Shown here: in pieces, positions 12,385 through 36,596 of the stretch
How positions within the stretch are numbered: position 1 is the first letter of the stretch
How the letters are laid out: each line of letters starts with the position of its first letter
DNA from: Alteromonas naphthalenivorans
Lineage (GTDB): Bacteria > Pseudomonadota > Gammaproteobacteria > Enterobacterales > Alteromonadaceae
Length of the DNA: 64,000 bases
Assembly: GCF_000213655.1 (NCBI RefSeq)
Contig: NC_015554.1
Span: 4,898,001 to 4,962,000 of the forward strand
Direction: 5' to 3'
Made by a program: the position numbers and the translations under genes
Notes under the pieces: model-generated
What the model saw: only the letters and a program-made list of their open reading frames with translations
What the model was told of the DNA's origin: nothing
Databases searched by the model: none

Positions 12385-13248
12385 ATGATTTACAGCATGA
12401 CCGCATTCGCGCGGGTTGAAACGAAAAAAGAGTGGGGCTCCGCCGTATGGGAAATACGTTCTGTTAACCAGCGTTTTCTAGAAACTTATTTCCGCTTACC
12501 CGAGCAATTCCGCTCTTTAGAGCCAGTACTTCGCGAACGTTTTAGAAAAAAACTGGCCCGCGGGAAAGTAGAGTGCGCGTTACGTTTCACCGCCAACGAT
12601 GCTGCTGTAACCACACTTAGCCTTAACGAAGCGTTGGCTAAACAAGTACTTCAAGCCGCCGACTGGGTACAAGCTCATGGACAATCTACCGGTGTAAACC
12701 CGCTAGACGTATTGCGCTGGCCTGGTGTGATTGCTGCCGAAGAAGCCGACATGGATACCATTCATGGCGATGTTATGGCTGCGTTCGACCAAGCACTTAA
12801 CGATTTTATAAGCGCACGTGCCACCGAAGGCGAAGCGTTGAAAGGCATGATTACTCAGCGCTTAGACGCCATTGAAATAGAAGCCGAGAAAGTCACCGCC
12901 CGTATGCCTGAAATTATGGTGTGGCAGCGCGAAAAAGTACAAGCTCGCTTCGAAGAAGCAAAAATTGAGCTAGACGCAGGCCGCTTCGAACAAGAAATGA
13001 TTATGCTTGCGCAAAAAGTGGATGTTGCCGAAGAGTTAGACCGATTAAACGCTCATGTAATAGAAACCCGCAACATTCTTAAAAAGGGCGGGGCAGTTGG
13101 CCGCCGTTTAGATTTTATGATGCAGGAATTTAACCGCGAGTCGAACACGCTTGGTTCAAAATCAATTAATACTGATATCACCCAATCGGCGGTTGAACTT
13201 AAGGTGCTGATTGAGCAGATGCGTGAGCAGATTCAAAACATCGAATAG
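12385..13248 (+). CDS. yicC: YicC-family endoribonuclease; 3' end rebuilt by the island
   Basis: The start at 12385 is preceded by AAAGGA and gives 287 residues opening MIYSMTAFARVE, as in YicC proteins; an upstream in-frame ATG at 12304 is not supported. YicC is an endoribonuclease reported to act on small RNAs. The N-terminal EIRSVNQRFLETYFRLPE and C-terminal FMMQEFNRESNTLGSKS segments are typical. The last codons are contributed by the integrated island: the displaced original 3' end is found at 36572-36596 with different synonymous codons, so the protein is unchanged. Confidence 0.95.
   Translation: MIYSMTAFARVETKKEWGSAVWEIRSVNQRFLETYFRLPEQFRSLEPVLRERFRKKLARGKVECALRFTANDAAVTTLSLNEALAKQVLQAADWVQAHGQSTGVNPLDVLRWPGVIAAEEADMDTIHGDVMAAFDQALNDFISARATEGEALKGMITQRLDAIEIEAEKVTARMPEIMVWQREKVQARFEEAKIELDAGRFEQEMIMLAQKVDVAEELDRLNAHVIETRNILKKGGAVGRRLDFMMQEFNRESNTLGSKSINTDITQSAVELKVLIEQMREQIQNIE
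13224..13248 (+). repeat. Left attachment site (attL) at the yicC 3' end
   Basis: TGAGCAGAT (13224-13232) is shared exactly with 36572-36580. The following codons encode Gln-Asn-Ile-Glu-stop at both places but differ at third positions (CAA AAC ATC GAA TAG here, CAG AAT ATT GAA TAA at the right). This is the usual sign of an element that restores the gene end it invades. The exact crossover cannot be fixed from one genome. Confidence 0.8.
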
Positions 13249-13277
13249 TTTTTTTACCCGTCCAAGAATGTCTTAGA

Positions 13278-13316
13278 AGCCCTGTTATTTGCTTGTAAAT
13301 ACAGGGCTTTTTTATT
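13278..13316 (+). terminator. Terminator after yicC, supplied by the island
   Basis: AGCCCTG (13278-13284) pairs with CAGGGCT (13302-13308) and is followed by a T-rich run. It replaces the original yicC terminator, which is now at 36636-36664. Confidence 0.8.
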
Positions 13317-13364
13317 TTCCCCGTCCAAATCGGTTTGCAGATGTCCGTTACCAGCTGCTGTTTA

Positions 13365-13564
13365 AGTGGTGGGCAAAATGGTGGGCAAGACCTGTTTTTT
13401 TGACTCAATAAGCAAAAAGTCAAGGTATCTGGTGAGCAGATTTTTACATCTATCTCACCACCGCCTTATGCCATCCCCACTTATCGTGCTGCTTGCAGAT
13501 TGTTCAATCACTCAACTATCGAACCAATCGATAAACAAACAGTGGTGGGCAATGGTGAGCAAAT
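13365..13564 (+). repeat. Arm-type GGTGGGCA repeats beside attL
   Basis: GGTGGGCA is doubled at 13368-13389, appears as GGTGAGCA at 13431, and is doubled again (second copy GGTGAGCA) at 13542-13561. The pair spacing of about 12 bases is the same as at the right end of the island (36480-36503). These are probably the integrase arm-binding sites. The rest of the 13249-13599 gap holds no gene. Confidence 0.7.
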
Positions 13565-13599
13565 TTTAACGATTTCTTAGGAATATAGAGTAACAAACG

Positions 13600-14856
13600 A
13601 TGGCAAAACTAACCGCAACTCAGGTGCAATCTTATGCTCGCACCGCAGCAGCAAACAAAAAATACAGTGATGGTAATGGCCTATATTTTTGCGTAAGAAA
13701 ATCTGGCATGCCGTATTGGATGCTAAGGTATACCAGCCTAAACGGACGACGAGAAGCCACGCTCGGTCAATATCCAAGCATGACCTTAGCAGAGGCTCGA
13801 CTTGAATCGTCTAAAATGCAGCTACAACTTCAGCAAGGTGAAGATCCATTAGCAATTCGCGCTATTGAAACCATCCCAGAGATCCAAAATATCAGCCAGC
13901 TGTTTCAAGACTGGTATGCCAAAGACTTAAGTCGCCGATTAAAGCACCCGAATATACCCAAACGTGTTTTTACCAAAGAAATTGCACCCGTGATTGGTCA
14001 ACTCCCTATCCAAGCAGTGCGGCCAACACATGTGCGCGAAGTATTAGAGCGCATTCGAGAAAGTAACCGCCCTACCATCGCCAACGATACCTTGATGTAC
14101 ATGAAGCAGCTGTTTCGACATGCGATAAAGCTCGACTTAACGCTGAACAACCCCGCCGCAGCATTTACCGTGGACGATGCCGGTGGTGTGGAGTCCAGTA
14201 AAGACAGGATGCTCAGCAAAGAGGAAATTCACTACGCCTTTAGCGTGTTTCATACCCATATCAATAGCTTTGGCCGCGACAACTACCTCGCTTGCTGCCT
14301 GTTTTTGGTATTGGGCGTGCGCAAAAGCGAACTGTGCGAAGCCATGTGGCGTGAAATGGATTTAACCACGGGCGTATGGGACCTACCCAAGGAACGAAGT
14401 AAAACTGGCGTGCCAATCAGCATTCCCTTACCACGCCAAGCCATTGCCTGGTTTAACGAGTTGCAAATCCGCGCTTGTGGCTCACCTTATGTTTTCCCAG
14501 CCAGACGAGCAAGCCATCGTCCACATATGGGGCCAGATACGCTAAACCGCGCCATTTCTAAACTCTTTGGTCGCGAGCCTGGGCGCAAAAAACAGCCACC
14601 GAATAAAACGGGCAAGCTTGAACACTTCACCGTACACGATCTGCGCCGCACCTTTCGCAGCCTTGCCGCCTCTTTGGGCATTGCAGGCAATGTGGCCGAA
14701 CGCTGTCTTAACCATAAGCTAAAAGGCGTTGAGGGTATCTACGACCGCCACGATTACTTTGAAGAGCGCCGTATTGCCCATCAAACCGTGGCTGATGTGA
14801 TCGAACCACTGGTGAACTTTGAGCCCGCTTCACAACACAAAATAGGAGGGCGTTAA
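13600..14856 (+). CDS. int: Tyrosine-recombinase integrase (P4-like) of the island
   Basis: The 418-residue protein has the P4-type layout: an N-terminal DUF4102-like arm-binding domain (GNGLYFCVRKSGMPYWMLRY, TLGQYPSMTLAEAR), a core-binding domain (about 100-195) and a catalytic domain. Catalytic residues are visible: Arg in LGVRKSELCEAMW (near 239), HxxR in VHDLRRTFRSLA (near 345), and the tyrosine in EGIYDRHDYFEERR. It faces into the island from attL and lies 350 bases inside it. All key residues are present, so it may be active. MGI-type islands in Vibrionaceae and Alteromonadales use integrases specific for the yicC 3' end. Confidence 0.95.
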   Translation: MAKLTATQVQSYARTAAANKKYSDGNGLYFCVRKSGMPYWMLRYTSLNGRREATLGQYPSMTLAEARLESSKMQLQLQQGEDPLAIRAIETIPEIQNISQLFQDWYAKDLSRRLKHPNIPKRVFTKEIAPVIGQLPIQAVRPTHVREVLERIRESNRPTIANDTLMYMKQLFRHAIKLDLTLNNPAAAFTVDDAGGVESSKDRMLSKEEIHYAFSVFHTHINSFGRDNYLACCLFLVLGVRKSELCEAMWREMDLTTGVWDLPKERSKTGVPISIPLPRQAIAWFNELQIRACGSPYVFPARRASHRPHMGPDTLNRAISKLFGREPGRKKQPPNKTGKLEHFTVHDLRRTFRSLAASLGIAGNVAERCLNHKLKGVEGIYDRHDYFEERRIAHQTVADVIEPLVNFEPASQHKIGGR

Positions 14857-14857
14857 C

Positions 14858-15196
14858 ATGCAATTTATGATGCGACTCGCCCCCATTACCTTTCCAATAG
14901 CCATGCTGGCAGGCCTTGGTTGGTGTATTGGCATTGCCTTACTCGAACAATCTCATGGCGTAGGCTACGCACTTACCCGGCATTGCCTGATGGTATTCGT
15001 GGTACTCGCTCCTTGGCTGACGTTAAAACTCACGTTCTACGTGATTGTCAGCCTAGGACGTAAACTAGGACTCATCCCGCCTGCACGCCCAACGTACAGC
15101 TTGGGTTATGAAGAATCACTCTATTGGTTCAGAGTATTGGCCTTCTTCGATGGCAAACGCAGCCGCATGCCGAAAAGGCCCATCAGGCGAAACTAA
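14858..15196 (+). CDS. Small membrane protein downstream of int, function unknown
   Basis: The ATG lies one base after the integrase stop, so it is almost certainly co-transcribed with int. GGAGG is found about 8 bases before the start, inside the last int codons. The 112-residue protein has two hydrophobic segments (about residues 9-28 and 41-63) and a basic C-terminus ending KRSRMPKRPIRRN. I recognise no family. Confidence 0.65.
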   Translation: MQFMMRLAPITFPIAMLAGLGWCIGIALLEQSHGVGYALTRHCLMVFVVLAPWLTLKLTFYVIVSLGRKLGLIPPARPTYSLGYEESLYWFRVLAFFDGKRSRMPKRPIRRN

Positions 15197-15292
15197 CAAG
15201 CCCTAATTTGCTTACTTACTGTGGGCATTTGGGACAGTGGGGCAACACTTGATACCGCAAGCTTTAGAAGGTGAATAAGAGGGATTTGAACC

Positions 15293-15343
15293 GCCCCAAG
15301 GAATGGGGCAATCGGGGATGCGGTAACAACTCCTAACCGCATC
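15293..15343. other. Two adjacent hairpins upstream of higB
   Basis: GCCCCA (15293-15298) pairs with TGGGGC (15304-15309), and GATGCGGT (15317-15324) pairs with ACCGCATC (15336-15343). Neither has a T run. They lie between the int operon and the toxin-antitoxin operator and may be protein-binding or transcript structures. Confidence 0.45.
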
Positions 15344-15363
15344 AAGAATACCAAACTTGCAAA

Positions 15364-15380
15364 AGTCCCAATATGGGACT
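15364..15380. promoter_or_regulatory. Palindromic operator of the higBA pair
   Basis: AGTCCCAATATGGGACT is a near-perfect palindrome with its centre 20 bases before the higB start. It is the expected type of site for autorepression by the HigA antitoxin. Confidence 0.65.
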
Positions 15381-15391
15381 AACATCTATTT

Positions 15392-15694
15392 ATGAGAATT
15401 ATCGCACTATCAACCTTAAAAACATTTTGGGAAGACAGCCCAGAATACATTGACGCGAAAGAGCCAACGTTAGCGTGGTATAGGCATGCATTAAACGCTG
15501 ATTGGGGATCACCGTCGGATGTGAAACAGGACTTTAGAAATGCCAGCATCCTCAAAGATGGGCGTGTCGTGTTTAACATTGCCGGTAATAAATACCGATT
15601 AGTCGTTTGGATCAATTATGCCTACAAGGTGGTTTACATACGGTTTATCGGCAGTCATGCACAATACGATAAAATTGATGTGCAAACGATTTAA
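15392..15694 (+). CDS. higB: HigB-family mRNA interferase toxin
   Basis: The 100-residue protein fits the HigB toxin family: an N-terminal AKEPTLAWYRHALNADWGSPSDVKQDF segment, then KDGRVVFNIAGNKYRLVVWINYAYKVVYIRFIGSHAQYDKID. The second part is the RelE-like core with the family signature NKYRL and the terminal H-x-x-YDKID. Such toxins cleave mRNA on the ribosome when the antitoxin is lost. The toxin-first order is usual for higBA. It is followed 31 bases later by higA and preceded by a palindromic operator. It probably stabilises the island. Confidence 0.9.
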   Translation: MRIIALSTLKTFWEDSPEYIDAKEPTLAWYRHALNADWGSPSDVKQDFRNASILKDGRVVFNIAGNKYRLVVWINYAYKVVYIRFIGSHAQYDKIDVQTI

Positions 15695-15725
15695 AGCCAA
15701 GAGGTAGTAACAAGAGGTAAATATA

Positions 15726-16097
15726 ATGGACATTAGACCTATTAAAACAGATGCCGACTACCGCGCGGCATTAAACGACATCGAAAACCTAATGATGGCG
15801 GAGCCAGATACCATTGAAGGCGAAAAGCTGGACATTTTGGTTACGTTAGTCGAGGCCTACGAAGCAAAGCATTTTCCAATGGATTTGCCAGACCCTGTTG
15901 AGGCAATAAAGTTTGAGATGGAGCGCAAAGGCTTAACGGTTAAAGATCTTGAACCCATGATAGGTAAAAGCAATCGTGTTTATGAAATCCTAAACCATAA
16001 GCGATCACTCACGCTAAAAATGATTTGGAAACTTCATGAAGGGTTAGGTATTCCAGCAGAGTCACTGATCAAGCCACCGCAAGTTCGCGCTTCATAG
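15726..16097 (+). CDS. higA: HigA-family antitoxin (XRE helix-turn-helix)
   Basis: The 123-residue protein is the cognate antitoxin of the toxin just upstream. The N-terminal part (MDIRPIKTDADYRAALNDIENLM) is the typical HigA opening, and the XRE-type helix-turn-helix lies at about residues 60-115 (MERKGLTVKDLEPMIGKSNRVYEILNHKRSLT). GAGGTAA stands before the start. It neutralises the toxin and probably represses its own operon through the palindrome at 15364-15380. Confidence 0.9.
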   Translation: MDIRPIKTDADYRAALNDIENLMMAEPDTIEGEKLDILVTLVEAYEAKHFPMDLPDPVEAIKFEMERKGLTVKDLEPMIGKSNRVYEILNHKRSLTLKMIWKLHEGLGIPAESLIKPPQVRAS

Positions 16098-16122
16098 CGC
16101 TGCGAATCAAAATTAGTTTGTT

Positions 16123-16703
16123 ATGAATGACGCTCGCTACCCAAACATTTCTGCTATTGATAACAGGCTAGCTGAGCTTGAAAACGAAAAGCAGCAGCTT
16201 CTCGCATTAAGAGAGGCTTTGCGTAGCGCTCAAAACGAGCGTTCACCCGTTAGTCCTTACAGAGCGCAGAGTACATACACTCACGACTTACCGAGATGGG
16301 TATAAGCACTGTCGTACTCAAAGGCGCCATGAAAGCTGCCGAACGCAAGAATGCTGTCAATCATCTGCAATCGGCTCAAGTCGTCGTCGCAACAGGAAAA
16401 TATGTAGGCGAAGGATTTGACCTACCAAGACTGGATACGTTGTTTTTGGCTATGCCAATCGCATGGAAAGGTACATTGGCTCAATATGCCGGTCGTATTC
16501 ATCGTGAATCGGAAGGCAAAACACAAGTCACCATTCACGACTATGTGGACTTCGCTCTCCCTATGCTGCAACGCATGTTTAAAAAACGCGAGAAAAGTTA
16601 CAAGGCTATGGGGTACGCCCTCGAGTACTTTGAGGGTAACAGTGACAAGCAACCTTCACTCAAGTTGGAAGACACCTCTCCATCAAATCCCAAGTTAAAT
16701 TAG
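16123..16703 (+). pseudogene. Remnant of an SF2 helicase (possibly TOTE-type conflict-system)
   Basis: Two frames form a collapsed gene. The first (16123-16305) encodes an N-terminus with a coiled-coil opening (NRLAELENEKQQLLALREALRSAQNE). The second (16296-16703) encodes only the last part of a superfamily 2 helicase: motif V-like ATGKYVGEGFDLPRLDTLFLAMP and motif VI-like QYAGRIHRE. The junction changes frame, and the Walker motifs and any primase or nuclease domain are gone, so a large internal deletion is the simplest account. The N-terminus resembles that of helicases in TOTE conflict systems, but this is from memory and uncertain. The product is unlikely to be active. Confidence 0.7.
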
Positions 16704-16747
16704 CAAGCCGCTCTTCGTTCAACACTTCCCCATGCCTTTCCCCCCAT

Positions 16748-17002
16748 ACGCCAAAACCACTATCCGTTTGGCTTTTGGATCGAAACGCCAAACAGGGAAA
16801 TTAGCCCATTTACTGTTTGGCTTCTCGATTGAAATCCAACGCTGGTAGGCCTTGCCATTACTGGATCAAAGCAAGGTTTGGTACTTTTTGTACCCTAAAC
16901 CAACCTCGGCATCAAAGTACAAACCGTTTGATTTTTTAAACCCAGAATGCAAACGATCGTTTGGCGTCTCGATTTTTTTGCACTTGGCGAACACAGCCAA
17001 AC
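16748..17002. repeat. GTTTGGC/GCCAAAC repeat cluster with hairpins
   Basis: Three imperfect 20-bp direct repeats (GTTTGGC, then TTYTCGATYGAAA-like bases) begin at 16766, 16815 and 16959. GTTTGGC at 16766 also pairs with GCCAAAC at 16787. CAAACGATCGTTTG (16950-16963) is a perfect palindrome, and GGTTTGGTAC (16875-16884) pairs imperfectly with GTACCCTAAACC (16890-16901). No credible gene lies in 16704-17172. The pattern could be an origin of replication, an origin of transfer or a regulator-binding region. Confidence 0.55.
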
Positions 17003-17172
17003 AGCACCGTATTGGACTATGTATATCAAACAGTTAGCCGCGCACAGGTCATCATAAAAAGCCGATTTGACTGGTTAGTTTGATGGCTATTTCTTTCATC
17101 TAATTCACCAACGCGTCTGCACCCGACCACTGAAAATAGACGGCATGACGAACCAACAAGGTGAAAAGTGAC

Positions 17173-17841
17173 GTGTTATGGGCAAGTGGTAACGATTGGG
17201 ATAGAGAATGGATACAGCGGGTGGTCGCTTTACTGGTTGGGCATGGCGCGTTTACTCTCTACCCGGCACTAAGCCAGTGCGAGAATGCAGCCGAACGCTT
17301 AACCCGCTGGCTGACCTATCAGTTACCACGCGTTAAACAAGTGACCCCAGGCTGCCCCATTCACCAATGGCTAAATAGCATTGGCGCACAAGTGATCGTA
17401 GAAAAATGGCAGAGCCCCGAGCAATGGCCAAACCTGTATTGGCTACCTTTACCTGAGGTTGATGGCCACGCGCAAGGCGGGTTAGTTGTGTTACCAGCGC
17501 ATTTGTTACCGACATCCAACACATTACAACTTAATACTCCCGCCAACGCCCGTATCTTTTGGTGCATTACGCCTTTATCTAAAACAGGAAAGCGCGCTAC
17601 CTTACACCCCAAACAGCAAAACTGCGCCTTTTGCCTGCCCAGTTCGCCGGAGCAAATGGGCAAATCATGCACGGGGTTATTACTGAGAGGTTTGAGAAAA
17701 GAAAGCCAAAAACGAAACAGCAACGTGATCAGCCATCAGATAAACCTAGCACTGCTGCACCACCTTTGTGGGCCGGAGAATGATGTGTGGATTACGAGCA
17801 AATGCTTTGGTAACGAGAACGAAACTCAACAACAAGGCTAA
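17173..17841 (+). CDS. Orphan protein of unknown function
   Basis: The frame opens with a GTG at 17161, but AAGGTG (17159-17164) is well placed for the GTG at 17173, giving 222 residues. The protein is soluble and rich in Trp, Pro, His and Cys. Features include an N-terminal GNDWDREWIQRVVALLVGHGAF helix, a QWPNLYWLPLPEVDGHAQGG segment, and two CxxC-like patterns (QNCAFCLP). I recognise no domain. It lies between the repeat cluster and a structured non-coding segment, facing the defence operon. It may belong to an island replication or processing module, but nothing in the sequence proves this. Confidence 0.45.
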   Translation: MLWASGNDWDREWIQRVVALLVGHGAFTLYPALSQCENAAERLTRWLTYQLPRVKQVTPGCPIHQWLNSIGAQVIVEKWQSPEQWPNLYWLPLPEVDGHAQGGLVVLPAHLLPTSNTLQLNTPANARIFWCITPLSKTGKRATLHPKQQNCAFCLPSSPEQMGKSCTGLLLRGLRKESQKRNSNVISHQINLALLHHLCGPENDVWITSKCFGNENETQQQG

Positions 17842-17953
17842 ATAACTTGATATTTGTTATGAAGAAAACCACAATTTGACACAAGCACTTTAAAGCTGGT
17901 TGAGCCTTTACCTAGTGTTTTGGCTCGTGGCTGCGCCTCAGTCGCCGTTAAGA

Positions 17954-18027
17954 CTGGGGCTTATCTCTTAACCCCAGAAACGAGTAACCCCTCACAGGGC
18001 GCTGATCTAACGGGTAGCGGGAGGGGT
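17954..18027 (+). ncRNA. Structured non-coding segment (candidate RNA)
   Basis: CTGGGG (17954-17959) pairs with CCCCAG (17972-17977), and ACCCCTC (17987-17993) pairs with GAGGGGT (18021-18027) around an inner CGCT/AGCG pair. The two stem-loops are adjacent. The 62-codon frame across this stretch has no ribosome site and no recognisable domain, so I treat the segment as non-coding. No promoter was identified. Confidence 0.3.
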
Positions 18028-18170
18028 ATTGTTGGTGCGATTTTAATATTAACAATGCAAAATGGCCATCCATTCGTACCATCTCGTGATGATCCACGAA
18101 ATGGTTAGTAATCTTTAGCTGCTTGATTATATGGCCATTAGTAATTAACTATTTTTTCCTGAAATTACCT

Positions 18171-18194
18171 GGTACCGACATAAATGTCGGTACC
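18171..18194. repeat. Perfect 11-bp inverted repeat after the helicase gene
   Basis: GGTACCGACAT (18171-18181) and ATGTCGGTACC (18184-18194) are separated by two A residues. It lies 25 bases beyond the stop of the minus-strand defence operon. Neither strand shows a T run, so it is not a standard terminator; it may be a binding site or a 3' stability stem. Confidence 0.7.
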
Positions 18195-18218: not shown

Positions 18219-21200
18219 TTAAGCTTCACCTGAAAGCCGTTTCCATACTTTCAAATAGTCTTCGCCGGACAGCGAGGAATTATCAGGTTTCAAACGCGCC
18301 CAATCATCCGGTTTCAAAGACTTCAGATATTCGCTGGCTTTTCGAGGTGACAGAGTATTTTCTGCACCGACTTCAGTTCGAGCCTTAAAGTCTTCACCGG
18401 CACGTTCAGCAATACTACGCGGAACGCTGTTCATCCGCATCAACACGCCTTCTTCGGTTTTCACACCATGGTAAAGCATCGCTGGGAGGTTATTTAATCT
18501 GCGCTTTTCTTCGTCTGTCATGGCTTCAAAATCAAGCCCTGAAGTTGGCATTTTGCTTAATGCCGACAACCCCCAAGCGCCATTATTGGCCAAATCTCTA
18601 TAAACCGCTCTGCAAGCTTTAGATATTTGATCTGTAAGGCTATCACCTTCAAAGTAAGTCTTCGCTATAGATTCAATGGAGCTACCTGTTACCCAAGCCT
18701 GGGTAATATCAGCAAGTTTACGATGACTATTCCCCTGTCCTTTACTGATCTCTCGTAAACTTTCTTGTAACTGCGGAACCCGCAGCATAATCCCCATCAA
18801 GCTTGGCAGCACAGACTTCGATTTATCGCCAAATAGACTCGAAGGCTCCCAATCTGCAAGCGTTAACTTGTTTTCAAGGTTATTCAAATCCAATAAAGTT
18901 GAACGAACGCCCTCTGGAGAGAAGCCTGTAACATCAGCAAGAGAAGCATTTTCTGGATGCTCAGCTAACTTTCTAACATACCCTTTGGTAGCCTCAAGAA
19001 GCGCATCAGCTTTCTCTTGCGAGGCTTTATCAGCTTTAGCGCGAAGAGAACCAAACCCGTAGGTATTTCGCAGTAATTGTTCAGCTTCACCAATTACAGC
19101 GTCCAAGTTACGTTTTTCATTCCATAAATGAGCGATATAGCTTCTGAAGTCTGCCCATTGTTCTTGCTGCATAACCCAAGATAAGTTTGCTAATTCCCCC
19201 GCGGCTTGAAGATCATCCAGCATTCCTTCCAGGCGGGAAACTAACGATGCAGTTGCATCACTAACATATTTCCGGATCTCATTCGGCTGTGCACCTGCTG
19301 CAATACCGATAACGCCGACGCTATCATGGCCGATACGCCCAGCCCGACCCGCTAGGTTCCAAAATGCCCGATGCGACATTTCATTGCCGTAAGGCAATTT
19401 TCTCGTCGCAAGAAAAACAGATGAAACAGGGAAGTTAAGCCCTTGTGCTATGGTTGTCGTTGCGCACATCACTCGAATATGGCCAGCTTCTGTAAGCCAC
19501 TCAATTAATGAAAGCGCCTCAGCGGGTAAGCCTGCATGATGCACAACAACACCTTTTGACAGCATATCAATTAGCTCAAAGTCCTCACTAATCTCAGCCG
19601 CTAGAAAACGCTGAACCAGTTTAATGTCTTCATGCACCGAAACTAAAGGTTCAAGCTCTGCGGCAACTTTACGAGCAATACTCCAAGCATCTGGAATCGT
19701 CTGCGCTACAGCAATACTGGTACCACGCTTAGAGAAAACCTTAGCCATAGCAACAGCCTGTGTTGCGAGCCCTTTAGCGCTAGAGTACGTCAGTTTTTGC
19801 AGAGGGCGGTTACCATCTACATTGTGGATTCCTTTAAGGTGAATCGTCCGTTGAGTAGTCGTCAACGTTTCAAAACTTAAATTCCAATCACCACGTTTTT
19901 CACCTTTATGAATATCAAATAAGCCAACAATTCTCTCATTCGGTTGCCAAGCAGAGGTGCCCAAGCTGATGCTTCGGCCACGATCAGCGGCTAGCCATTG
20001 AGCTAAATCGTTAGCATTCGGCACAAATGGCATCAATAGTAAGAAGTTTGCCCGAGGTGATTCTTGCTTAATCGTTGCAAGCAGAAGTTCAATGCGCAAG
20101 CCACGAGACTCATCTTCAATATTATGAGCTTCATCCATTACAACCAGAGCCAATGGGCGCGCGACTTTTTTGTTTCTCATCACCAATTGAAGTTTCTCAG
20201 GTGTTGCAACCAAAACCTGAAAAGCACGTGCTTCACCCAAAAGCGCTTCTTCAAAAGCATCGACTTCAATCGCGCCAGTTAACGGCTCAACTTGAATACC
20301 TAATGGGCCAAAATCTTCACGTAATCGTCGGGTAATTTGCGAAACCAAAGCGCGAGTTGGCGCAACATAGGCCACCCAACCATCATCCTGATCAAACTGA
20401 TTCAGCGCTTGCAACATGCGGAACTGTGCCAGCGCGGTTTTACCGCCGGATGTAGGCAAATCAACAATTACCGCTCTACTGGCTTGGTCGAGTAAACCTT
20501 GCTCTTGCAGTGCAGCGCGTTGCGGCGGTAACAGTTCAAATAAGCTCTTGTGCTTAGTCACATGGGAAACAAAGCGTGTCACACGGGAGTTAACCGTATG
20601 CGCCACCCACCATAAAGAGCCAGCGACCATTTTTCGGCTTGCGACATGTAACCAGCGTAAAATCATTTCGAGCTGCGGGTCTTTAGAGGCTTGTGCCGCT
20701 TTTTGCGCCGCTTCAAAATGCTGATCTAATTGTGCATCGATCGCTACCGGTTCGCCTTGCAGCATGTACACAGCCAAACGCTCTGTTGCTTTGGCCCAGT
20801 GATAAAGCGCCACTAAACGCATGGCGATGCTTTGCGCCTCTGCACCTTGGGTTTGTTCTAGTAACGCTTTTTCGTAGTTTGCTTGATCGTTTCGTAAACC
20901 AAGCACAATCTCTGAAATCTGATCTAAGTCATCCCAGCGGTTTTTACGTAGTAGTCGTAACCAACAATCAAAAATTCGGTAAAGCAGACGCTTATCCCAA
21001 GTAACACCTGCCACACTGGGTACTGCTAATGTACTGTTCTGCTCTTCAAACCATCGACGTAAATCGGTCCAGCGATCAGCGCAGTAGGCCAAACCCGATA
21101 CATGCAAAACATGAAACAAGCGCGCCTCATTGTCACTCGGTACGGGTAATACACGATAAAGCCCGAACGCTCGAAACGCGCCAGCTTGTGCAAGCTCACG

Positions 21201-24961: not shown

Positions 24962-24981
24962 AAATCGTGTCGTCACTTCTG

Positions 24982-27372: not shown

Positions 27373-27373
27373 A

Positions 27374-29503: not shown

Positions 29504-29549
29504 GTTGTTATTCACCTCATTGGCAGGTAACGGGTTTGATGCTGATGGT

Positions 29550-29792: not shown

Positions 29793-29830
29793 CGTTTGCT
29801 TCCTCACTGATCTGTTAAGTTCAGTTAGGA

Positions 29831-30129
29831 GTTTGCCCCGCTATTATTAAAGAGTTAAACGGACGCAGTAGGCAGATAAGTACTCAGATCGTGCAGCTTT
29901 CTGAGGGTACAAGTAGCTACTTGCCCCAGTTTGTAGATAGTGCCCCAAATAATAATTGTTCTGTGGGCAGGGTTGGTGCGTGGCTAAGTGGCGTGAACTA
30001 AGGCTTTGCCCAAACTGCCCCAAAAGCCCAAGGGATGAGCGAAGTGTTAAAACACATGGAGTATGAGGCAAAGCATAAAGTGAAACTAAAACTTCTTTAT
30101 CTGCTGAAAAATGAAAATATAGTTTCACT
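29831..30129. repeat. TGGGGCA repeats and an inverted repeat upstream of alpA
   Basis: On the minus strand TGGGGCA-like units are centred near 29836, 29934, 29945 and 30019. TGGGGCA recurs on the plus strand at 15238 and 15304. In addition AGTGAAACTA (30079-30088) pairs with TAGTTTCACT (30120-30129) across 31 bases, just after the hipA stop. An open frame here (29847-30128) is not supported as a gene. Confidence 0.45.
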
Positions 30130-30135
30130 GACTCA

Positions 30136-31386
30136 TTAAACGTTAAACGCTGATTGTTTCATGGCTTGCTCCGCTCGGCTGATCCCTAGCCGCTTAGCAA
30201 CGGTTTGCCATTGCTTAACCGCCATTAATACTTCATCGTAAATTTGCGTGGCTTGGGTTTGCGAAAGTCTGAAGAAGTCTTTCACATCAAAGGCTAGCTG
30301 GTAGTCTAAAGCGTTGTCTGCATCGGTAATATTCAGATGCAGGCCATGCTTACCCACTATCGGGTTTAAATCATAAGCGGGTGATAACTTCCAGCCATTC
30401 TTTGTTAATAAAAACCCATGGTTACGCAGGTGATAATCCGTGTTGGACACCGCAATATTAAACACGATTCGACGCCATAACTGAGCTAAATCGGCTGCGG
30501 TTTGTGCACCAGAATTGGAAATAAATTCAGCAATCTCTAAGTAGCTAGCACCTTGAGATTGTTCACCATCATAGTATTGAAGCTGTGTCATGGCCGATGA
30601 AAAATGCAGCCGCTTTTCACCGTCGCGGTCAAACCGTTTGGTTAAAAAGGTATGGTGCTGTGACGAAAATTGCTTGATCTCACTTGGAAACATGTGAACA
30701 CCTGCCGCAAGAGCCAATTCATAACAGACCATCTCCCATGCGCCCACGTCATGGGTATCATTTAGATTGGGAAACTTGGCAATCCACAAGTGGCCTTGTT
30801 CATCTGTGACACAAGCCTTGGGCCTTGCACCACCTAATGATGAGCCTGGAGAAATCAGCATTTTCAACCAGCGGTAATACTCGTCACTGTCGATGTTATC
30901 GTCTTTTTCAATCTGCATTGCTGCGTGCTCTAGCTCTCGCAAAGAAGCCATTGGTGGCGCAGCAAACTCAGAGTTGCCGTCCAAAAAAGCATCCGAGCCT
31001 ACTCGCTTAAATCGAATCCCCCCCATCCGATAAGAGTCATGTACGCCCAGCAGGTAATCCAATTCGTTTAATCGACTTGTTGCTCGAATGCCTTTGCGCG
31101 CCTCAATCGCCGCACGCCGCTGCATTAAAATACGCCCCCATCTATCAGGCGATGAATCAAGAAATGCGCGAAAGTTTTTATCGGCTTCATCGTTATAGAG
31201 TTCACCGGAGTGAAGCGTTAGGATTGGATCAATTTGCAAGCGATAGGCTGAGGTTAAAAATGCTTTATCGTAGGCAAAACTAAATACGCCACCTCGGCTT
31301 GAATCACTGTGAGCAAGCAGCCCAATTAGCAAAGGCGCTTCAATTGGCTGCCAGTCGGCATAGACTTCGACGATTTCACGGCTCAT
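30136..31386 (-). CDS. HipA-like serine/threonine kinase toxin (first hip pair)
   Basis: The 416-residue protein has the HipA fold: the phosphate-binding loop in SPGSSLGGARPKACV (near residue 187), the catalytic ISNTDYHLRNHGFLL pattern (N-x-D-x-H-x-x-N), and YDLNPIVGKHGLHLNI. HipA toxins phosphorylate glutamyl-tRNA synthetase or relatives and drive growth arrest. The ATG overlaps the antitoxin stop by four bases. It has no detectable similarity by eye to the second HipA of this island except at the motifs, so they come from different subfamilies. Confidence 0.88.
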   Translation of the reverse strand: MSREIVEVYADWQPIEAPLLIGLLAHSDSSRGGVFSFAYDKAFLTSAYRLQIDPILTLHSGELYNDEADKNFRAFLDSSPDRWGRILMQRRAAIEARKGIRATSRLNELDYLLGVHDSYRMGGIRFKRVGSDAFLDGNSEFAAPPMASLRELEHAAMQIEKDDNIDSDEYYRWLKMLISPGSSLGGARPKACVTDEQGHLWIAKFPNLNDTHDVGAWEMVCYELALAAGVHMFPSEIKQFSSQHHTFLTKRFDRDGEKRLHFSSAMTQLQYYDGEQSQGASYLEIAEFISNSGAQTAADLAQLWRRIVFNIAVSNTDYHLRNHGFLLTKNGWKLSPAYDLNPIVGKHGLHLNITDADNALDYQLAFDVKDFFRLSQTQATQIYDEVLMAVKQWQTVAKRLGISRAEQAMKQSAFNV

Positions 31387-31688
31387 TTTGAACCTTCCAG
31401 CAATTTTATGTTTTGCAGCTTGATACCCACTTCATCATGAGCGGCCATTTCTGCAAAGTTGCTTTCCATGCCAAGAACAGCCATCACTTTTAAGTAAGTG
31501 CCTATGGCAACGCCCGGATCACCGGCGAAGACTTTATTCACGGTTTTATGATCAAAACCAGTACGTTCACACAGTAGCTTTTTTGTAAAACCACGTCGTT
31601 TCATCGCCAACAGCAAGTCTTCACCAAAATGCCTCAGGATTTTGCGCTGCTTTGGAAACAGTACATTGTGTAAGTCACGCTTAGCCAT
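31383..31688 (-). CDS. HipB-like antitoxin, XRE-type HTH (first hip pair)
   Basis: The start at 31688 (MAKRDLHNVL) gives 101 residues; an upstream in-frame ATG at 31700 lacks support. A helix-turn-helix lies at about residues 27-70 (MKRRGFTKKLLCERTGFDHKTVNKVFAGDPGVAIGTYLKVMAVLG). The stop overlaps hipA by four bases (ATGA). Four GGACTATATTCCCA-like repeats are found just upstream, where an autorepressing HipB would bind. Confidence 0.85.
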   Translation of the reverse strand: MAKRDLHNVLFPKQRKILRHFGEDLLLAMKRRGFTKKLLCERTGFDHKTVNKVFAGDPGVAIGTYLKVMAVLGMESNFAEMAAHDEVGIKLQNIKLLEGSK

Positions 31689-31702
31689 ATCACCAACCAA
31701 AG

Positions 31703-31828: not shown

Positions 31829-31895
31829 CCTTTAGGTTTAGCTTGCGCGTTGGTCAAGGCGATGAAATGGATCCCTGAATGCCAAAGGTTGCGGA

Positions 31896-31955
31896 TTACA
31901 CTTTTATGCGCATAAAAATGTATAATTCCACACTTTTCTGCGCGTTAAAGTGTAG
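31896..31955. promoter_or_regulatory. Paired palindromes upstream of the AAA_14 gene
   Basis: Two imperfect palindromes share the form CACTTTT-n-TGCGC-n-TTAAAGTG: one centred near 31909 (CACTTTTATGCGCATAAAAA), one near 31942 (CACTTTTCTGCGCGTTAAAG). The distance of about 32 bases is three helical turns. A TATACT-like -10 box begins at about 31965. Confidence 0.6.
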
Positions 31956-31999
31956 ACTGAGTTATACTACAGGCAGTTAACAGTCTTAATTGGCGGGAA

Positions 32000-33334
32000 A
32001 TGACAATGCAGCGCAACTTACTCAACGCCCTAATAGCATGGAAAAATCAACCGGTGCGCAAGCCATTATTGATCGATGGTGCAAGACAAACAGGTAAAAC
32101 CTATCTGCTACAAGAGATATTTGGGAACACCTTTGCCAACATCCTTCGTATCGACTTCCTTGAAAACCCTGCTTACAAAGAAGCGTTCGATGGCTCTCTG
32201 TCACCTGACGAGCTAGTAATGAACATTGAGTTGTTAACCAACCAAGCGTTCAACCCAGAAACCGATCTGCTGATATTAGATGAAATTGGCGAATGTGAAC
32301 GTGCCGTTACCTCACTAAAGTACTTTGCTGAAAAAGCACCGTCCTATTTTGTCGCTGCCAGCGGCTCGAATATTGGTTTGCTCAACACCTTCCCTGTGGG
32401 CAAGGTAGAACAATACAATTTACGACCACTGACCTTCCAAGAATTTATTTACGCATCCAACGAGCAAGCGCTGATCAAAGCGTTTGATAGTCAAGCAAGC
32501 ACACCGGCAGTACACACCAAATTGATGGACAAACTCACTGACTACTTTTTTACTGGTGGTATGCCGGAAGCCGTTTCTGCTTGGTATCAGTATAAGGATT
32601 CAAGCATTCTAGAGCGTGTTGAAAAAGTCACAAAAATTCATGCCTATTTAGTGGAAGGTTATCGCCGCGATTTTGGTAAGTACGCGGGCAAGGTCGACGC
32701 CACACTGATTGAATCGGTATTTAATAGCATTCCAGCCCAGCTATCACTTGTCAGCGATGAGTCGGTTAAACGCTTTAAATTTAAGCATGTGCATGAACGT
32801 AAATCTCGTTATAGCGATTTTGAAACCGCGATCCATTGGCTTAACTGCTGCCGCTTAGCTTTGCCAAACTACCCTATTGAAGGATTGCCGAAATCTCCGT
32901 TAGCGGCCTATAAAAAAGAAAATATGGTGAAACTGTTTCTGTTTGATGTGGGCCTGCTTAATCATATGCTCGGCAGCAGTTATAAAGAAATTAAGCAACA
33001 AAACTATGATCTCTCTGTTTATAACTACAGAGGCTATGTGGCTGAAAACTTTGTGCAACAAGAGCTCACTGCCATTGGCGTTGACCCAAGCTATTCATGG
33101 AATGACGCCCGCGCCGAAATCGAATTTATTTTGGCGACCGATGAAGGCGATATCGTCCCTGTGGAGGTCAAAAGTGGTAAACGTACAAGAGCAAAATCGT
33201 TGGCATCCTACGTTGAAAAATGTACTCCAAGTAAAACCTTTAAGTTAACGGGTACACAAGGCTCATCCGCATTAGAGCAAACCAATATCGTGATGCCTTT
33301 GTATTTCACGCAGTATTTACCACAGAGATGGTAA
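32000..33334 (+). CDS. AAA_14/DUF4143 ATPase
   Basis: The 444-residue protein has an N-terminal AAA+ domain with Walker A in LIDGARQTGKTYLLQE (near residue 30), Walker B in DLLILDEIGECE and a sensor-like VAASGSNIGLL. The C-terminal DUF4143 domain includes YRGYVAENFVQQEL and a nuclease-like AEIEFILATDEGDIVPVEVKSGK. An ATG two codons downstream (32006) is also possible. These proteins are common in islands and pathogenic gene clusters; a role in DNA-linked defence or in toxin-antitoxin-like regulation has been proposed, without firm evidence. It is the only plus-strand gene in this part of the island and has its own operator-like promoter. Confidence 0.88.
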   Translation: MTMQRNLLNALIAWKNQPVRKPLLIDGARQTGKTYLLQEIFGNTFANILRIDFLENPAYKEAFDGSLSPDELVMNIELLTNQAFNPETDLLILDEIGECERAVTSLKYFAEKAPSYFVAASGSNIGLLNTFPVGKVEQYNLRPLTFQEFIYASNEQALIKAFDSQASTPAVHTKLMDKLTDYFFTGGMPEAVSAWYQYKDSSILERVEKVTKIHAYLVEGYRRDFGKYAGKVDATLIESVFNSIPAQLSLVSDESVKRFKFKHVHERKSRYSDFETAIHWLNCCRLALPNYPIEGLPKSPLAAYKKENMVKLFLFDVGLLNHMLGSSYKEIKQQNYDLSVYNYRGYVAENFVQQELTAIGVDPSYSWNDARAEIEFILATDEGDIVPVEVKSGKRTRAKSLASYVEKCTPSKTFKLTGTQGSSALEQTNIVMPLYFTQYLPQRW

Positions 33335-33477
33335 AAGCGCGTTGCTTAGACCCCGAGGTCTACACAAAGTGACTTCATAGGTAACAATTTGTAGACCTTT
33401 GGTGGGCTTACAACCTTTCAACCAACCCTCAATCGGTTTTTTGCTAACGTCATTTGGCCAGCCTATCGCCTCATCGT

Positions 33478-34596
33478 TTAAAGCAAATCACTCAAGCGAT
33501 TTAACAGTGCTTTACGGCTATTATTCGCCACAACAAAGCGCTTAAAACGTTGTTCAAACGCCGCTTCATCCGCTTTGAACTGATAGGCCTCAAACAGCTG
33601 ATGCAGATAGCTTGATGCCGCATCGTAACCACTGGCGCAAGTGCGATCCGCTTGCTCTTGTGCTTGCTGCCAGTAGTGCTCATGTTGATTGTAGATATCC
33701 GTCAACGCTTTTTCTTTTTCCGCTTTTTCGATAGCTAATTTTTTTGCGAGTGCTGCGGCTTGCTCTTGCTGTAATTGACTTTGCGCTTGCTCAATGAAAG
33801 GAGAAATGACGGCGGAGGTTAACCAGTATTGATAGATCTCGTCTGTGTTGACAGGTTCTTTTCGCGTCAGCGCTAAGGCTTGGTGTCGGGTTAGCTGGCC
33901 TTGCTCAAACAGCGTGCGTAAAAGCGTGTCTTTCTCTGCTTGCGAGAGATTATGGAGCCACGAATCAAACTGAAATTGGGTTTGTTTGGCTAGGTGACTG
34001 GGTTGCTCCTTCAGCACCATGGCCAGAGCCTTAACTAATGCTAAGGGAATATCATACAGCGCTGCAAACGCCTGCTCCTCTTCACTGAAGTGCTCAAAAT
34101 CGAATTGAATTAACGGCACTCGCTCAACGTCATCATTAAAATCAAACATTTTGAGCCACATAAAGTACACAAGGCGCCAATCCCCTTGCATTAACCCGCT
34201 GCGTAACCCAGCTAAATGCTGGAAAAAGTCGTCAGCATGCTCATCGTCAAAATACTCATCATACTCCTCAAGGGAAAAAATCAGCAACTGCCACTCATCG
34301 TTTTCGTGAATATGAAGTCCATCACTTGAAAAGCCAAGTAACGCATCTGGAAGCGTTCCTGCTGGTAGCTTGATGTATACATCGATTGAGCCCCAATCGG
34401 CATAGTAAAAACCGATATCAAAGTATTTTAACATCAGCTCAAAAGGCTCGGCCTTTAGATCACTGTAGGTGTAATACACCTGAAAGGACGTAGCGCTGAT
34501 CTCGGCACGGCTTGAAATGGCCCTGAGTGCTTGACGTGCTTTAGCATCTAAATACCCATCCAGACGCTCAAATTTATAGTATTGATATTCGCTCAC
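33478..34596 (-). CDS. Conserved-looking island protein of unknown function
   Basis: The 372-residue protein has an N-terminal globular region (YQYYKFERLDGYLDAKARQALRAISSRAEISATSFQVYYTYSDL, then YYADWGSIDVYIKLP), an acidic stretch (EEYDEYFDDEHADDFF), and a helical C-terminal half with a Gln/Ala/Lys-rich coiled coil (about 265-315) ending in a basic FVVANNSRKALLNRLSDLL. The N-terminus resembles proteins encoded beside SWIM zinc-finger genes in other bacteria, but no SWIM gene is present here. The preceding 140 bases hold no gene. Confidence 0.65.
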   Translation of the reverse strand: MSEYQYYKFERLDGYLDAKARQALRAISSRAEISATSFQVYYTYSDLKAEPFELMLKYFDIGFYYADWGSIDVYIKLPAGTLPDALLGFSSDGLHIHENDEWQLLIFSLEEYDEYFDDEHADDFFQHLAGLRSGLMQGDWRLVYFMWLKMFDFNDDVERVPLIQFDFEHFSEEEQAFAALYDIPLALVKALAMVLKEQPSHLAKQTQFQFDSWLHNLSQAEKDTLLRTLFEQGQLTRHQALALTRKEPVNTDEIYQYWLTSAVISPFIEQAQSQLQQEQAAALAKKLAIEKAEKEKALTDIYNQHEHYWQQAQEQADRTCASGYDAASSYLHQLFEAYQFKADEAAFEQRFKRFVVANNSRKALLNRLSDLL

Positions 34597-34644
34597 GATG
34601 ACCTTGCTATCTATTTATTGTGAATTGAAAAGTTTGTTTTACTT

Positions 34645-35994
34645 TCATTGAAAAAGCGCTGCATTTTCTTGTTTGCGCTGCTCCAATGTCTTAGCAATCG
34701 CAGACACTGTTGTTTTACTGATCTCTAGCTGCGTCGCAAGATAAGCAAATTGGCTGATGGCTTCTGCAACTTCTTCAATGACTTGCCTTGCATCATGCCA
34801 ACTCCCATAGCCCGCACTGGTCGCTAGTTTTTGCATCACCTTAAGCGGTGGCGCTTTACCATAACCTCCGAACACAGTGGCGTGTTCGTTGAATGGATGT
34901 GGGCTGTAAGTCACATCGTAAAAAGGGGCAGGATCCCATTGACCGTCATCCGCTTGCAAAAACGCCCAGTTTTTACTGTGGTCGTCTTGATTAGACGACA
35001 GCAGATTAAAAATGGCGCGGCGAAATTGCAGTTGTCCAGCCGCTGGCGATTTACACAACTGACGGCTGGCTTTAATTAAATCAATGTAATCTAAACTTGG
35101 CGTTCGAAAGTCTGCATCCATTAGCCCGCAAGCGCTGTGCATATGCAGGCGACCTGAACTGCGATTACTGCCTAAATCGGCCTGTTCAGTGACATAATCA
35201 AAACGCTTAAGCGCTAACCAGGCAGGCGCACCGCTGGTAGGTGGTGCTTCAATGAGTTGCCATTGCGGCGGTTGACACTTAGCAAGTTCTGCCATTTGTA
35301 AATAAACTGCCTCGCACAAACCTTCTTCATGCCCGAGCGCGAGATTTTTAGAAGTAAATTTAATCAGCCAAGCCTCATCTCCAAGCTGAGCGAAGGTTCG
35401 ACAATACTGAGTTTCCCCAGCAGGCATATAAATTTGTGCCTTAGGCCTTGCCCCACCCGAACTACCTCCGGCGACTAATGCGGCCAACACCTGTTGAGTA
35501 TGCCCATCTAACTCATCGTGATTATCATCCATATAATCTGACATCGAAGAATCGAACAGCGTTTGTGCTTCTAAGCCTAACGTCGCTAAATCAATATCCG
35601 CGTGCGTGGTGGCTGAAAACTCAGACACCGGAGAAAAAGACAATGCTCCCATGCCTTTATCACCGACAAAGGCCAGTCTATCCATCGCCGTTAATTGATT
35701 AGGTAGGATGCCCTTTTGCCGGAAAATACGATCTTGTAACAGCATGCCCCAGCCATCGGGTAAACAATCTCCAAATACGCCATGTACACCTTGGTGCGGC
35801 GCTTTAGGAGCGACTTGAACTTGCGCGTTCGCATGCAAGGTAAAAGGTGATAAGTTGCCAAACTGCTGCAAGTAGCTGTCTGCATACTGGAAAAAAACGC
35901 CTTGCCGATTCTGCGCCAAGACCCCTACTGCAACCTGCTCACCTGAACTTAAGGTGCGAGTCACGGCGAGTTTTTGAATGGGTTTAAAACTCAT
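34645..35994 (-). CDS. HipA-like kinase toxin (second hip pair)
   Basis: The 449-residue protein has the HipA motifs: phosphate-binding loop in VAGGSSGGARPKAQIYM (near residue 155), the catalytic LLSSNQDDHSKNWAFLQ and YDVTYSPHPFNEH. The N-terminal HipA_N region includes GDCLPDGWGMLL, where HipA homologues carry the conserved DGWG. Its ATG overlaps the antitoxin stop by 11 bases. It differs strongly from the first HipA of the island; both look intact. The C-terminus (SKTTVSAIAKTLEQRKQENAALFQ) is helical. It probably phosphorylates a tRNA synthetase, as in known family members. Confidence 0.88.
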   Translation of the reverse strand: MSFKPIQKLAVTRTLSSGEQVAVGVLAQNRQGVFFQYADSYLQQFGNLSPFTLHANAQVQVAPKAPHQGVHGVFGDCLPDGWGMLLQDRIFRQKGILPNQLTAMDRLAFVGDKGMGALSFSPVSEFSATTHADIDLATLGLEAQTLFDSSMSDYMDDNHDELDGHTQQVLAALVAGGSSGGARPKAQIYMPAGETQYCRTFAQLGDEAWLIKFTSKNLALGHEEGLCEAVYLQMAELAKCQPPQWQLIEAPPTSGAPAWLALKRFDYVTEQADLGSNRSSGRLHMHSACGLMDADFRTPSLDYIDLIKASRQLCKSPAAGQLQFRRAIFNLLSSNQDDHSKNWAFLQADDGQWDPAPFYDVTYSPHPFNEHATVFGGYGKAPPLKVMQKLATSAGYGSWHDARQVIEEVAEAISQFAYLATQLEISKTTVSAIAKTLEQRKQENAALFQ

Positions 35995-36274
35995 CTTTTA
36001 GCACCTCATCAATACTAGAGGGCATAGTGACCCGTTCTTTGCTAGGTTGTGTGAGTTGATAGAGCCTCTCTAGCGAATCAAGGGTCTGCCATAGCAACAG
36101 CAATTGGCGAAATGAAATTTGCCCGGTCAGCTCAAATTTCTTAATGGTGGCCGCAGGTACGCAGCTTCGCTCAGCAAGCGCCGCTCGTGACAGCTTTGCC
36201 TGCTTTCGTAACTCACGTAAATAAGCCGCATAGGCGTGGCTTACATCGGTATCATCAAGTAAGGTAAATTTCAT
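35984..36274 (-). CDS. HipB-like antitoxin, XRE-type HTH (second hip pair)
   Basis: The start at 36274 (MKFTLLDDTDVSHAYAAYLR) gives 96 residues; the longer frame begins inside the operator region and is not likely. A helix-turn-helix is at about residues 22-70 (RKQAKLSRAALAERSCVPAATIKKFELTGQISFRQLLLLWQTL). It overlaps hipA by 11 bases. Two GGATA-N6-TATCC sites lie just upstream, consistent with autorepression. Confidence 0.85.
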   Translation of the reverse strand: MKFTLLDDTDVSHAYAAYLRELRKQAKLSRAALAERSCVPAATIKKFELTGQISFRQLLLLWQTLDSLERLYQLTQPSKERVTMPSSIDEVLKDEF

Positions 36275-36289
36275 CCGCAAAGGCCAAAT

Positions 36290-36346
36290 GGATACAGTCA
36301 TATCCATTATATCGAAATAAAACATAAAGTGGATATTATTGTATCC
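36290..36346. promoter_or_regulatory. Two GGATA-N6-TATCC operators of the second hip pair
   Basis: GGATACAGTCATATCC (36290-36305) and GGATATTATTGTATCC (36331-36346) share both half-sites. Their starts are 41 bases apart, about four helical turns. They resemble the HipB operators of E. coli in their half-sites, though there the order is TATCC-N8-GGATA. Confidence 0.7.
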
Positions 36347-36479
36347 ATTATTAAATAAAGTGTTGAAAAAATTACTCGATAAAGCCCTTCAAAACTGCTA
36401 TGTTTTGCTCTAACAGCAGCATAAAAACGACACTGTTTTTCCATTGCTAACCACTAAGATTTAGTAAAAGCCATAGGCA

Positions 36480-36503
36480 AGTGGTGGGCAGTTTGGTGGG
36501 CAA
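36480..36503 (+). repeat. Arm-type GGTGGGCA repeats beside attR
   Basis: GGTGGGCA is doubled with a spacing of about 12 bases, as at 13368-13389 beside attL. These are the likely integrase arm sites of the right end. The remainder of 36347-36571 shows no gene. Confidence 0.7.
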
Positions 36504-36571
36504 ACAGGCATTTTTGAACGGTTTCTTTTCGATAACTCATTGAGTTTGTTAGGGTCTAGGCCGCTACTCAA

Positions 36572-36596
36572 TGAGCAGATCCAGAATATTGAATAA
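36572..36596 (+). repeat. Right attachment site (attR): displaced yicC 3' end
   Basis: This stretch encodes Glu-Gln-Ile-Gln-Asn-Ile-Glu-stop, the end of yicC, and shares TGAGCAGAT exactly with attL. Its synonymous codons differ from those now in yicC. The original yicC terminator follows at 36636-36664. Confidence 0.85.

Follow-up and report, generated by a model that had tools for sequence, protein, structure and literature searches.

What occupies the 3' end of yicC in Alteromonas naphthalenivorans, and by what means could it move? The question is raised by a 64,000-nucleotide stretch of the genome (NC_015554.1, positions 4,898,001–4,962,000; hereafter the window, whose numbering is used below), in which yicC is followed by 23.3 kb of mostly defence-related DNA. 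We conclude, with a probability of roughly nine in ten, that this region is a mobilizable genomic island (MGI) belonging with those that exploit integrative and conjugative elements (ICEs) of the SXT/R391 family, that it entered the 3' end of yicC by site-specific integration, and that it probably depends on such a helper for its transfer. Elements of this kind are already known; the points of interest are this member, its copy in Escherichia coli, and the question of whether it replicates.

According to excerpts of two reports (PMC4542580, PMC4344509), MGIs occupy the 3' end of yicC, measure 18–33 kb, encode an integrase, possess an origin of transfer (oriT) more than 63% like that of SXT, carry restriction-modification cargo, have int, rdfM and one further core gene activated by SetCD, and occur in Vibrio, Alteromonas, Pseudoalteromonas and Methylophaga. 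The window island resembles these elements, the prototype of which is MGIVflInd1, in site, size, integrase, oriT, SetCD-box-like sites and restriction-modification cargo. It differs from MGIVflInd1, with which it was compared by description, in having its own set of cargo genes and a DUF927 gene that we propose as a core gene.

Insertion site and boundaries

The island is delimited by two attachment-site (att) cores, TGAGCAGAT, identical at 13224–13232 and 36572–36580 and 23,348 bp apart core to core, so that the island sits in the 3' end of yicC between direct att repeats, as MGIs do. The target gene yicC (12304–13248, plus strand; Pfam PF03755/PF08340), found in 59 of the 60 relatives searched, takes its final codons from the island. 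In attL (13224–13248, plus strand) the core is joined to an island-borne substitute for the yicC 3' end, and in attR (36572–36596, plus strand) to the displaced native 3' end. Both ends encode EQIQNIE followed by a stop, and they differ in third bases only: the left copy, joined to yicC (GAGCAGATTCAAAACATCGAATAG, codons at 13225–13248), reads ATT CAA AAC ATC and ends in TAG where the right copy (GAGCAGATCCAGAATATTGAATAA, codons at 36573–36596) reads ATC CAG AAT ATT and ends in TAA, the codons GAG CAG and GAA being common to both.

Is the right-hand repeat truly a piece of yicC, or the end of a separate gene? The sequence-only reading had proposed comparison with an island-free genome as the test that could refute it. 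In E. coli PSS-15, which lacks the island, yicC and dinD are adjacent, and the native last yicC codons with their downstream DNA recur, by alignment, at the right end of the island carried by another E. coli genome (E14, described below). The right repeat is therefore the native yicC end, moved by about 23 kb. A further E. coli genome, H16 (30EVA2), has another integrase next to yicC and was set aside as a comparison. Among congeners, the closest one found (G032), with YicC 99% identical and a different element in the yicC site, has a right flank 95% alike from window position 36568 rightwards, including the hairpin terminator at ~36636–36662, beyond the right end of the island. In a second congener (G029) a complete relative of the island shows both ends again, at locus positions 173 and 25779, with island-borne sequence inward as in the window and its own host sequence outward.

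The ends are also marked by a TGGTG[AG]GCA repeat that is confined to them: seven plus-strand copies are found no more than 330 bp from the left core or 90 bp from the right one, and the rest of the island has no copy on either strand; this clustering at both cores indicates that the ends are not a product of chance. The five left-hand copies (13367–13561, plus strand; starts at 13367, 13379, 13430, 13543 and 13553) and the two TGGTGGGCA repeats at the right end (36482–36502, plus strand) are likely integrase arm sites. Thus, the earlier claims that the last eight yicC codons stand at both ends with synonymous differences, that a core is shared, that an integrase faces inward at the left end and that the original terminator lies past the right end were all borne out, coordinates included.

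Putative origin of transfer

An oriT mimic (16726–17013, plus strand) links the island to SXT/R391 elements: along 297 bp it is 72% identical to the oriT region beside mobI in these ICEs, a value above the 63% reported for MGIs. The ICE oriT is here the stretch adjoining mobI, rather than a reference oriT record, and was located through the MobI profile PF19456. Searched against the whole 64-kb window, this stretch gave a single strong match (E 4.3e-41), all others being short and either inside it or with E of at least 1. Six of the eight mobI-type loci, with near-identical SXT-type flanks, match 16726–17013 at 70–72% over 295–297 columns; the remaining two (L156 and L162) gave no match to the island. 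The genome of Marinomonas fungiae, which according to part of one report carries two SXT/R391 ICEs (PMC5122569), also holds the island integrase at 98%, and it supplied mobI-adjacent DNA through the MobI profile.

The oriT mimic accompanies the integrase. Among 79 loci gathered by integrase similarity it is present in 36 of 43 with integrase identity of at least 80%, in 1/32 at 50–80% and in none of four below 50%; in four of the seven misses in the first class the contig ends within 4.4 kb of int. The block comprising oriT and the adjacent gene p226 matched 39 of 5,426 complete E. coli genomes, 28 of them with at least 80% of the block (including four of the E14 type), seven at 71–74% over the oriT part alone, and four through a 116-bp end. 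The annotation places two of the seven oriT-only matches at mobI; of these, ET734 was inspected and has the order umuDC-mobI-oriT-ParM-integrase-AlpA, which we take to be the layout of an SXT/R391 ICE. The oriT-p226 block was also seen in another island, beside tRNA-Sec in E. coli SMN152SH1 (16001–17037 of its locus), in which the first third of oriT is unmatched and the integrases are marked as pseudogenes.

SetCD-box-like sites

The SetCD box is described, in part of one report (PMC4344509), as a 19-bp element just upstream of the -35 hexamer (CACCGC in Ps003), present in MGIVflInd1 before rdfM and cds4 and, in a weaker form, before intMGI. We modelled it on two sites of a Marinomonas ICE, the box of Ps003 and the divergent one before mobI, and ranked 46,600 island positions. 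The top site (score 20.2; 13443–13464, plus strand) starts 157 bp before int, and the third and fourth (both 13.4) lie upstream of alpA (29865–29886, minus strand) and p226 (17093–17114, plus strand). These three alone, out of 18 genes examined, are preceded within 250 bp by a site scoring at least 13.3; random window triplets equalled this result in 0/20,000 cases, and single-base shuffles of the island contained on average 0.5 sites with at least that score, versus 4 observed. The scan thus suggests boxes before int and before the candidate counterparts of rdfM and cds4. A search for paired G-rich motifs gave no consistent result.

Integrase and conserved core genes

The tyrosine integrase (13600–14856, plus strand) exhibits the Arm-DNA-bind_3, Phage_int_M and Phage_integrase domains. 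It is 98–99% identical in other gammaproteobacterial genera, namely Maribrevibacterium, Paraferrimonas, Pseudoalteromonas, Pseudidiomarina, Methylophaga and Marinomonas, and no relative with at least 60% identity was found in the phage collection. Loci of the 80–90% integrase class mostly match the window DNA at 91–97% from ~14032 on and are unmatched over 13414–14032, which appears to reflect a swapped N-terminal (arm-binding) part of the integrase together with the left end. The conserved core comprises int, p112, p226, alpA and the DUF927 gene.

p226 (17161–17841, plus strand), a gene of unassigned function next to oriT, is our candidate for the counterpart of MGI cds4. In an alignment of 37 sequences (six loci skipped, two genomes entered twice) the third codon position in the first two thirds of the gene is about three times as variable as the others, and 31 of the 37 copies are open for 218–240 codons; both observations argue that p226 is a real gene. 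A protein search returned 122 sequences including its own, and the 120 listed include entries from Vibrio, Proteus, Salmonella and E. coli. p112 (14858–15196, plus strand), directly 3' of int, is kept in relatives, has no assigned function and looks by eye like a membrane protein. Its C-terminus weakly matches the EexR/EexS entry-exclusion family NF041429 (E 1.1e-4, 22 bits versus a cut-off of 200); the suggestion that it is EexR-like found no support among the open reading frames (ORFs) of the ICE stretches (best E 0.11; the ICE eex gene was not pinpointed there).

The 85-aa AlpA-family regulator (29550–29807, minus strand; PF05930 1.2e-23, PHROG 'excisionase and transcriptional regulator' 6.4e-14) is a candidate recombination directionality factor, i.e. 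it could take the role of rdfM. A second candidate is a small helix-turn-helix (HTH) protein (27374–27571, minus strand), which matches the excisionase/regulator phrog_66 (3.3e-14) and is 98% identical to a protein annotated MAD1 in E. coli E14. Downstream of alpA lies a primase/helicase-type DUF927 gene (27821–29590, minus strand), with a likely ATG at 29563, within the last codons of alpA. Its product matches PF06048 (2.7e-78), PHROG 'DNA primase' over most of its length (8.1e-87) and, far below the cut-off of 700 (75 bits, 3.6e-21), the model SCCmet_Cch1 of the replicative helicase of staphylococcal cassette chromosomes (SCC). DUF927 helicases have been likened to Cch and to SaPIBov1 Rep, according to a portion of one report (PMC10061031).

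Among 27 genomes with related integrases the DUF927 gene is present at full length in 15 (96–98% identity) and partial or broken in eight, where the best pieces have at least 90% identity and some are split across pieces or contigs; three have only a distant or tiny match and one (G432) none, these counts recording presence in the genome rather than location in the same island. The persistence of an intact, alpA-coupled DUF927 gene in 15 of the 27 suggests that the excised island may replicate. Could MGIs then be replicative, with a SetCD-driven alpA-DUF927 operon that both excises and copies the circle, in the manner of phage-inducible chromosomal islands (PICIs) or SCC? We put this forward as a tentative idea with the odds against it. 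Part of one report states that MGIs are not stably maintained by extra-chromosomal replication (PMC4344509), and tandem repeats near the DUF927 gene, as possible marks of an origin, are short and weak. A literature search confined to joint mentions of DUF927 and AlpA met work on PICIs and no description of the pair in MGIs.

Copies and scars in other genomes

The left part of the island (13250–18060) matched 39 of the complete E. coli genomes, and four of these, all from chicken (E14, E15, E16 and E32), cover it to 83% at 93% identity. The E14 island (in NZ_CP121149.1; 19976–43206 of its locus) is near-colinear with that of the window: between yicC and dinD are annotated int, p112, higBA, a TOTE primase, p226, a DEAD helicase, M23A, hsdS, hsdM, hsdR, MAD1, DUF927, HTH (alpA), an ATPase, p372, hipA and hipB, i.e. 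the same order from int to the second hipB. DNA identity amounts to 91–96% across five blocks of the island and to 81% in that with the yicC end and the left end. The E14 copy differs in lacking the first hipBA pair, in having a full TOTE gene, and in its integrase (83%) and HsdS (63% at the protein level), the last of which points to a likely swap of specificity.

Among congeners, 35 yicC loci were fetched and 34 could be anchored. In nine of the 34 (G029 and G032 among them) an integrase-like gene lies no more than about 400 bp from where yicC ends, and five others have whole or partial island genes and no integrase. Island genes such as AAA14, or pieces of hip, lie beside yicC in these five integrase-free loci, perhaps as scars of lost islands. 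No island DNA was found in the first 6 kb of eight loci examined, and in one of them (G008) less than 170 bp separates yicC from the right-flank gene. A 108-bp spacer (window 15210–15317) is duplicated in G029, where ~1.8 kb of additional DNA separates one copy from the other, and cargo modules are missing elsewhere between the short conserved spacers 31895–31953 and 33355–33399.

Helper and alternative explanations

The Pfam (main ORFs) and NCBIfam scans of the island proteins found no transfer-protein domain, in keeping with the earlier remark that conjugation genes are lacking, and the size of the island lies within the 18–33 kb range, apparently with no transfer genes of its own. Together with the 72% SXT-type oriT mimic this makes helper dependence, as first suggested, the probable mode of transfer; with the yicC site and the SetCD-box-like sites added, the assignment to the SXT/R391-mobilised MGIs gains support. 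MobI was found in four of 59 genomes of the genus, three with scores and lengths like those of the SXT type (as judged by score and length rather than alignment), and the SXT-type mobI region in four of 15 carrier genomes tested from the 79 loci. Both SXT/R391 ICEs and an MGI have been reported in Alteromonas, according to part of one report (PMC5217437).

Several observations weigh against this assignment. The MobI profile PF19456 has no match anywhere in the host genome, which implies that no SXT/R391 helper resides there now. The tra genes that the host does have, near 4.67 Mb, are not of the SXT type: when 89 ORFs from three ICE-bearing stretches were compared with the surrounding 80 kb, a single one matched, at 30% identity, and its product is presumably TraD. 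Three loci with closely related integrases (L071, L099 and L136) have no oriT, even though their contigs extend well beyond int. The TOTE gene is truncated in the window island, and the small HTH gene competes with alpA as an excisionase-like candidate. MGIVflInd1 being known here by its description, we infer the correspondence of int, p226, alpA and DUF927 with intMGI, cds4, rdfM and cds8 rather than read it from an alignment. As to the SetCD boxes, the model is built from two sites in one pair of divergent ICE promoters, the s003 box came to notice through comparison with island promoters and was only afterwards placed by the published -35, the rank-2 site falls inside hsdR, the highest shuffle also had four sites, two of 200 shuffles reached a score of at least 20, and an unguided search for 19-bp motifs in 39 upstream regions of ICEs returned nothing assignable to SetCD. 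The host tra genes form a separate conjugation cluster at ~4,669,000–4,679,500, with TraU, TraC and TraG_N, and with TrbI under its cut-off.

Perhaps, then, the island is what remains of a dead MGI that has lost its mobility and serves only as a store of defence genes? The absent helper, the truncated TOTE gene and the integrase-free pieces of island genes at the same site in the five congeners would fit such an end state, which we nevertheless consider improbable: both att sites and the oriT are intact, as are the frames of int, p226, alpA and DUF927, and the E14 copy is 91–96% identical in five blocks.

The integrase, AlpA and DUF927 proteins also recall a phage satellite packaged by a helper phage, as PICIs require int, alpA and a replication primase (PMC10111431, PMC10061031, from portions of both), and the island has all three, including the DUF927 match to the phage 'DNA primase'. 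We give this explanation very little weight, as Pfam (main ORFs) and PHROG searches (ten proteins) revealed no capsid, head-size, helper-interference or convincing terminase gene, and it leaves the oriT mimic and the SetCD-box-like sites unexplained. The small HTH protein does match a small-terminase family (1.2e-6), across the HTH only and behind the excisionase family. Equally remote is mobilisation by IncC plasmids, the islands of which, according to parts of two reports, also occupy the 3' end of yicC (PMC8409611, PMC5397120): an island like MGIVmi1 should have its own mobI, which is absent genome-wide, one like SGI1 should have mpsA, traG and traN, of which the general scans gave no sign in the form of a transfer-protein domain (mpsA, traG, sgaC and traN were not used as queries), and the oriT is instead of the SXT type.

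Defence and toxin-antitoxin cargo

The cargo comprises a type I restriction-modification system, PDC-M23, an AAA14/PDC-S01 ATPase, HigBA and two HipBA pairs. In PDC-M23, the helicase M23B (18219–21461, minus strand) is related to HamB (PADLOC PDLC04531, E 0; HamB models down to 3.9e-66), while M23A (21458–22255, minus strand; PADLOC PDC-M23A 1.1e-115) is a predicted HamA-like nuclease with residues D118, E138 and K140 invariant in a 22-row alignment. The HamA model of PADLOC did not match M23A, and Pfam found no HamA family among 22 members, for which reason a structure model was made. This model (mean pLDDT 89) has as its top solved match HamA of Hachiman (8vx9_A; E 7.4e-6, probability 1.00, template-modelling score 0.62), at only 15% sequence identity. 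Two listed relatives bear the precomputed label PF08878, which we take to be the HamA family. The pair is thus predicted, by fold and by profiles, to be a Hachiman-like (HamAB) system, with a HamA-fold nuclease beside a HamB-type helicase; its low identity to HamA sets it apart from Hachiman proper, and PADLOC files it as the candidate PDC-M23. In the plasmid collection, 17978–22848 gave two short hsdS matches only.

The type I system, identified by domain and PADLOC scans, consists of hsdS (22255–23391), hsdM (23393–24976) and hsdR (24982–27462, with an EcoEI-like C-terminus), all on the minus strand. A higB-higA type pair (15392–16097, plus strand; PF09907 2.1e-31, HTH_3 8.7e-5, just short of the cut-off) precedes the TOTE primase-helicase remnant (16296–16703, plus strand), the C-terminal 135 aa of a protein of 799 aa in locus L077 and 802 aa in E. 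coli E14. Further to the right are hipA-hipB pair 1 (30136–31700, minus strand; Pfam), the DNA of which is absent from the E14 and G029 copies, the AAA_14/DUF4143 ATPase (32000–33334, plus strand; Pfam, PADLOC candidate PDC-S01), p372 (33478–34596, minus strand), which is 98% identical in E14, has no match in Pfam, PADLOC, NCBIfam or PHROG and no assigned function, and hipA-hipB pair 2 (34645–36325, minus strand; Pfam), adjoining attR. Rfam at its gathering threshold detected no RNA family in the island.

A hipAB pair adjoining attR, together with restriction-modification genes, also characterizes GI21 of Shewanella putrefaciens CN-32 and the yicC islands of Shewanella and Pseudoalteromonas, compared here by description; in GI21, for which HipAB is reported to prevent loss of the island, integrase and excisionase both lie beside attL, unlike in the window island (PMC8978831, in part).

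Proposed cycle and significance

An island of this kind would remain silent until an SXT/R391 ICE enters the cell. The ICE activator SetCD would then turn on the AlpA-type directionality factor and raise int expression, Int and the directionality factor would excise the island as a circle, the alpA-coupled DUF927 protein might copy it, and the MobI and relaxase of the ICE would act on the island oriT, so that the circle could leave by the mating pore of the ICE. Inside the recipient, attP and yicC would be recombined by basal Int, the island providing the last yicC codons and a terminator. Its defence and toxin-antitoxin genes would be of advantage to the carrier and guard the island against loss.

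If MGIs did replicate, a single entry of an ICE could yield many island copies for transfer and for surviving loss; the published view of MGIs as non-replicating would have to be revised, and a conserved core gene would gain a function. The alpA-DUF927 operon makes MGI replication directly testable. That a marine member of the Alteromonadales and E. coli from chicken (Enterobacterales) have near-colinear copies points to a single mobile defence package that has moved between orders. An anti-phage arsenal of type I restriction, a Hachiman-like system and toxin-antitoxin pairs seems to travel with a conjugation hitch-hiker whose host range is very wide.

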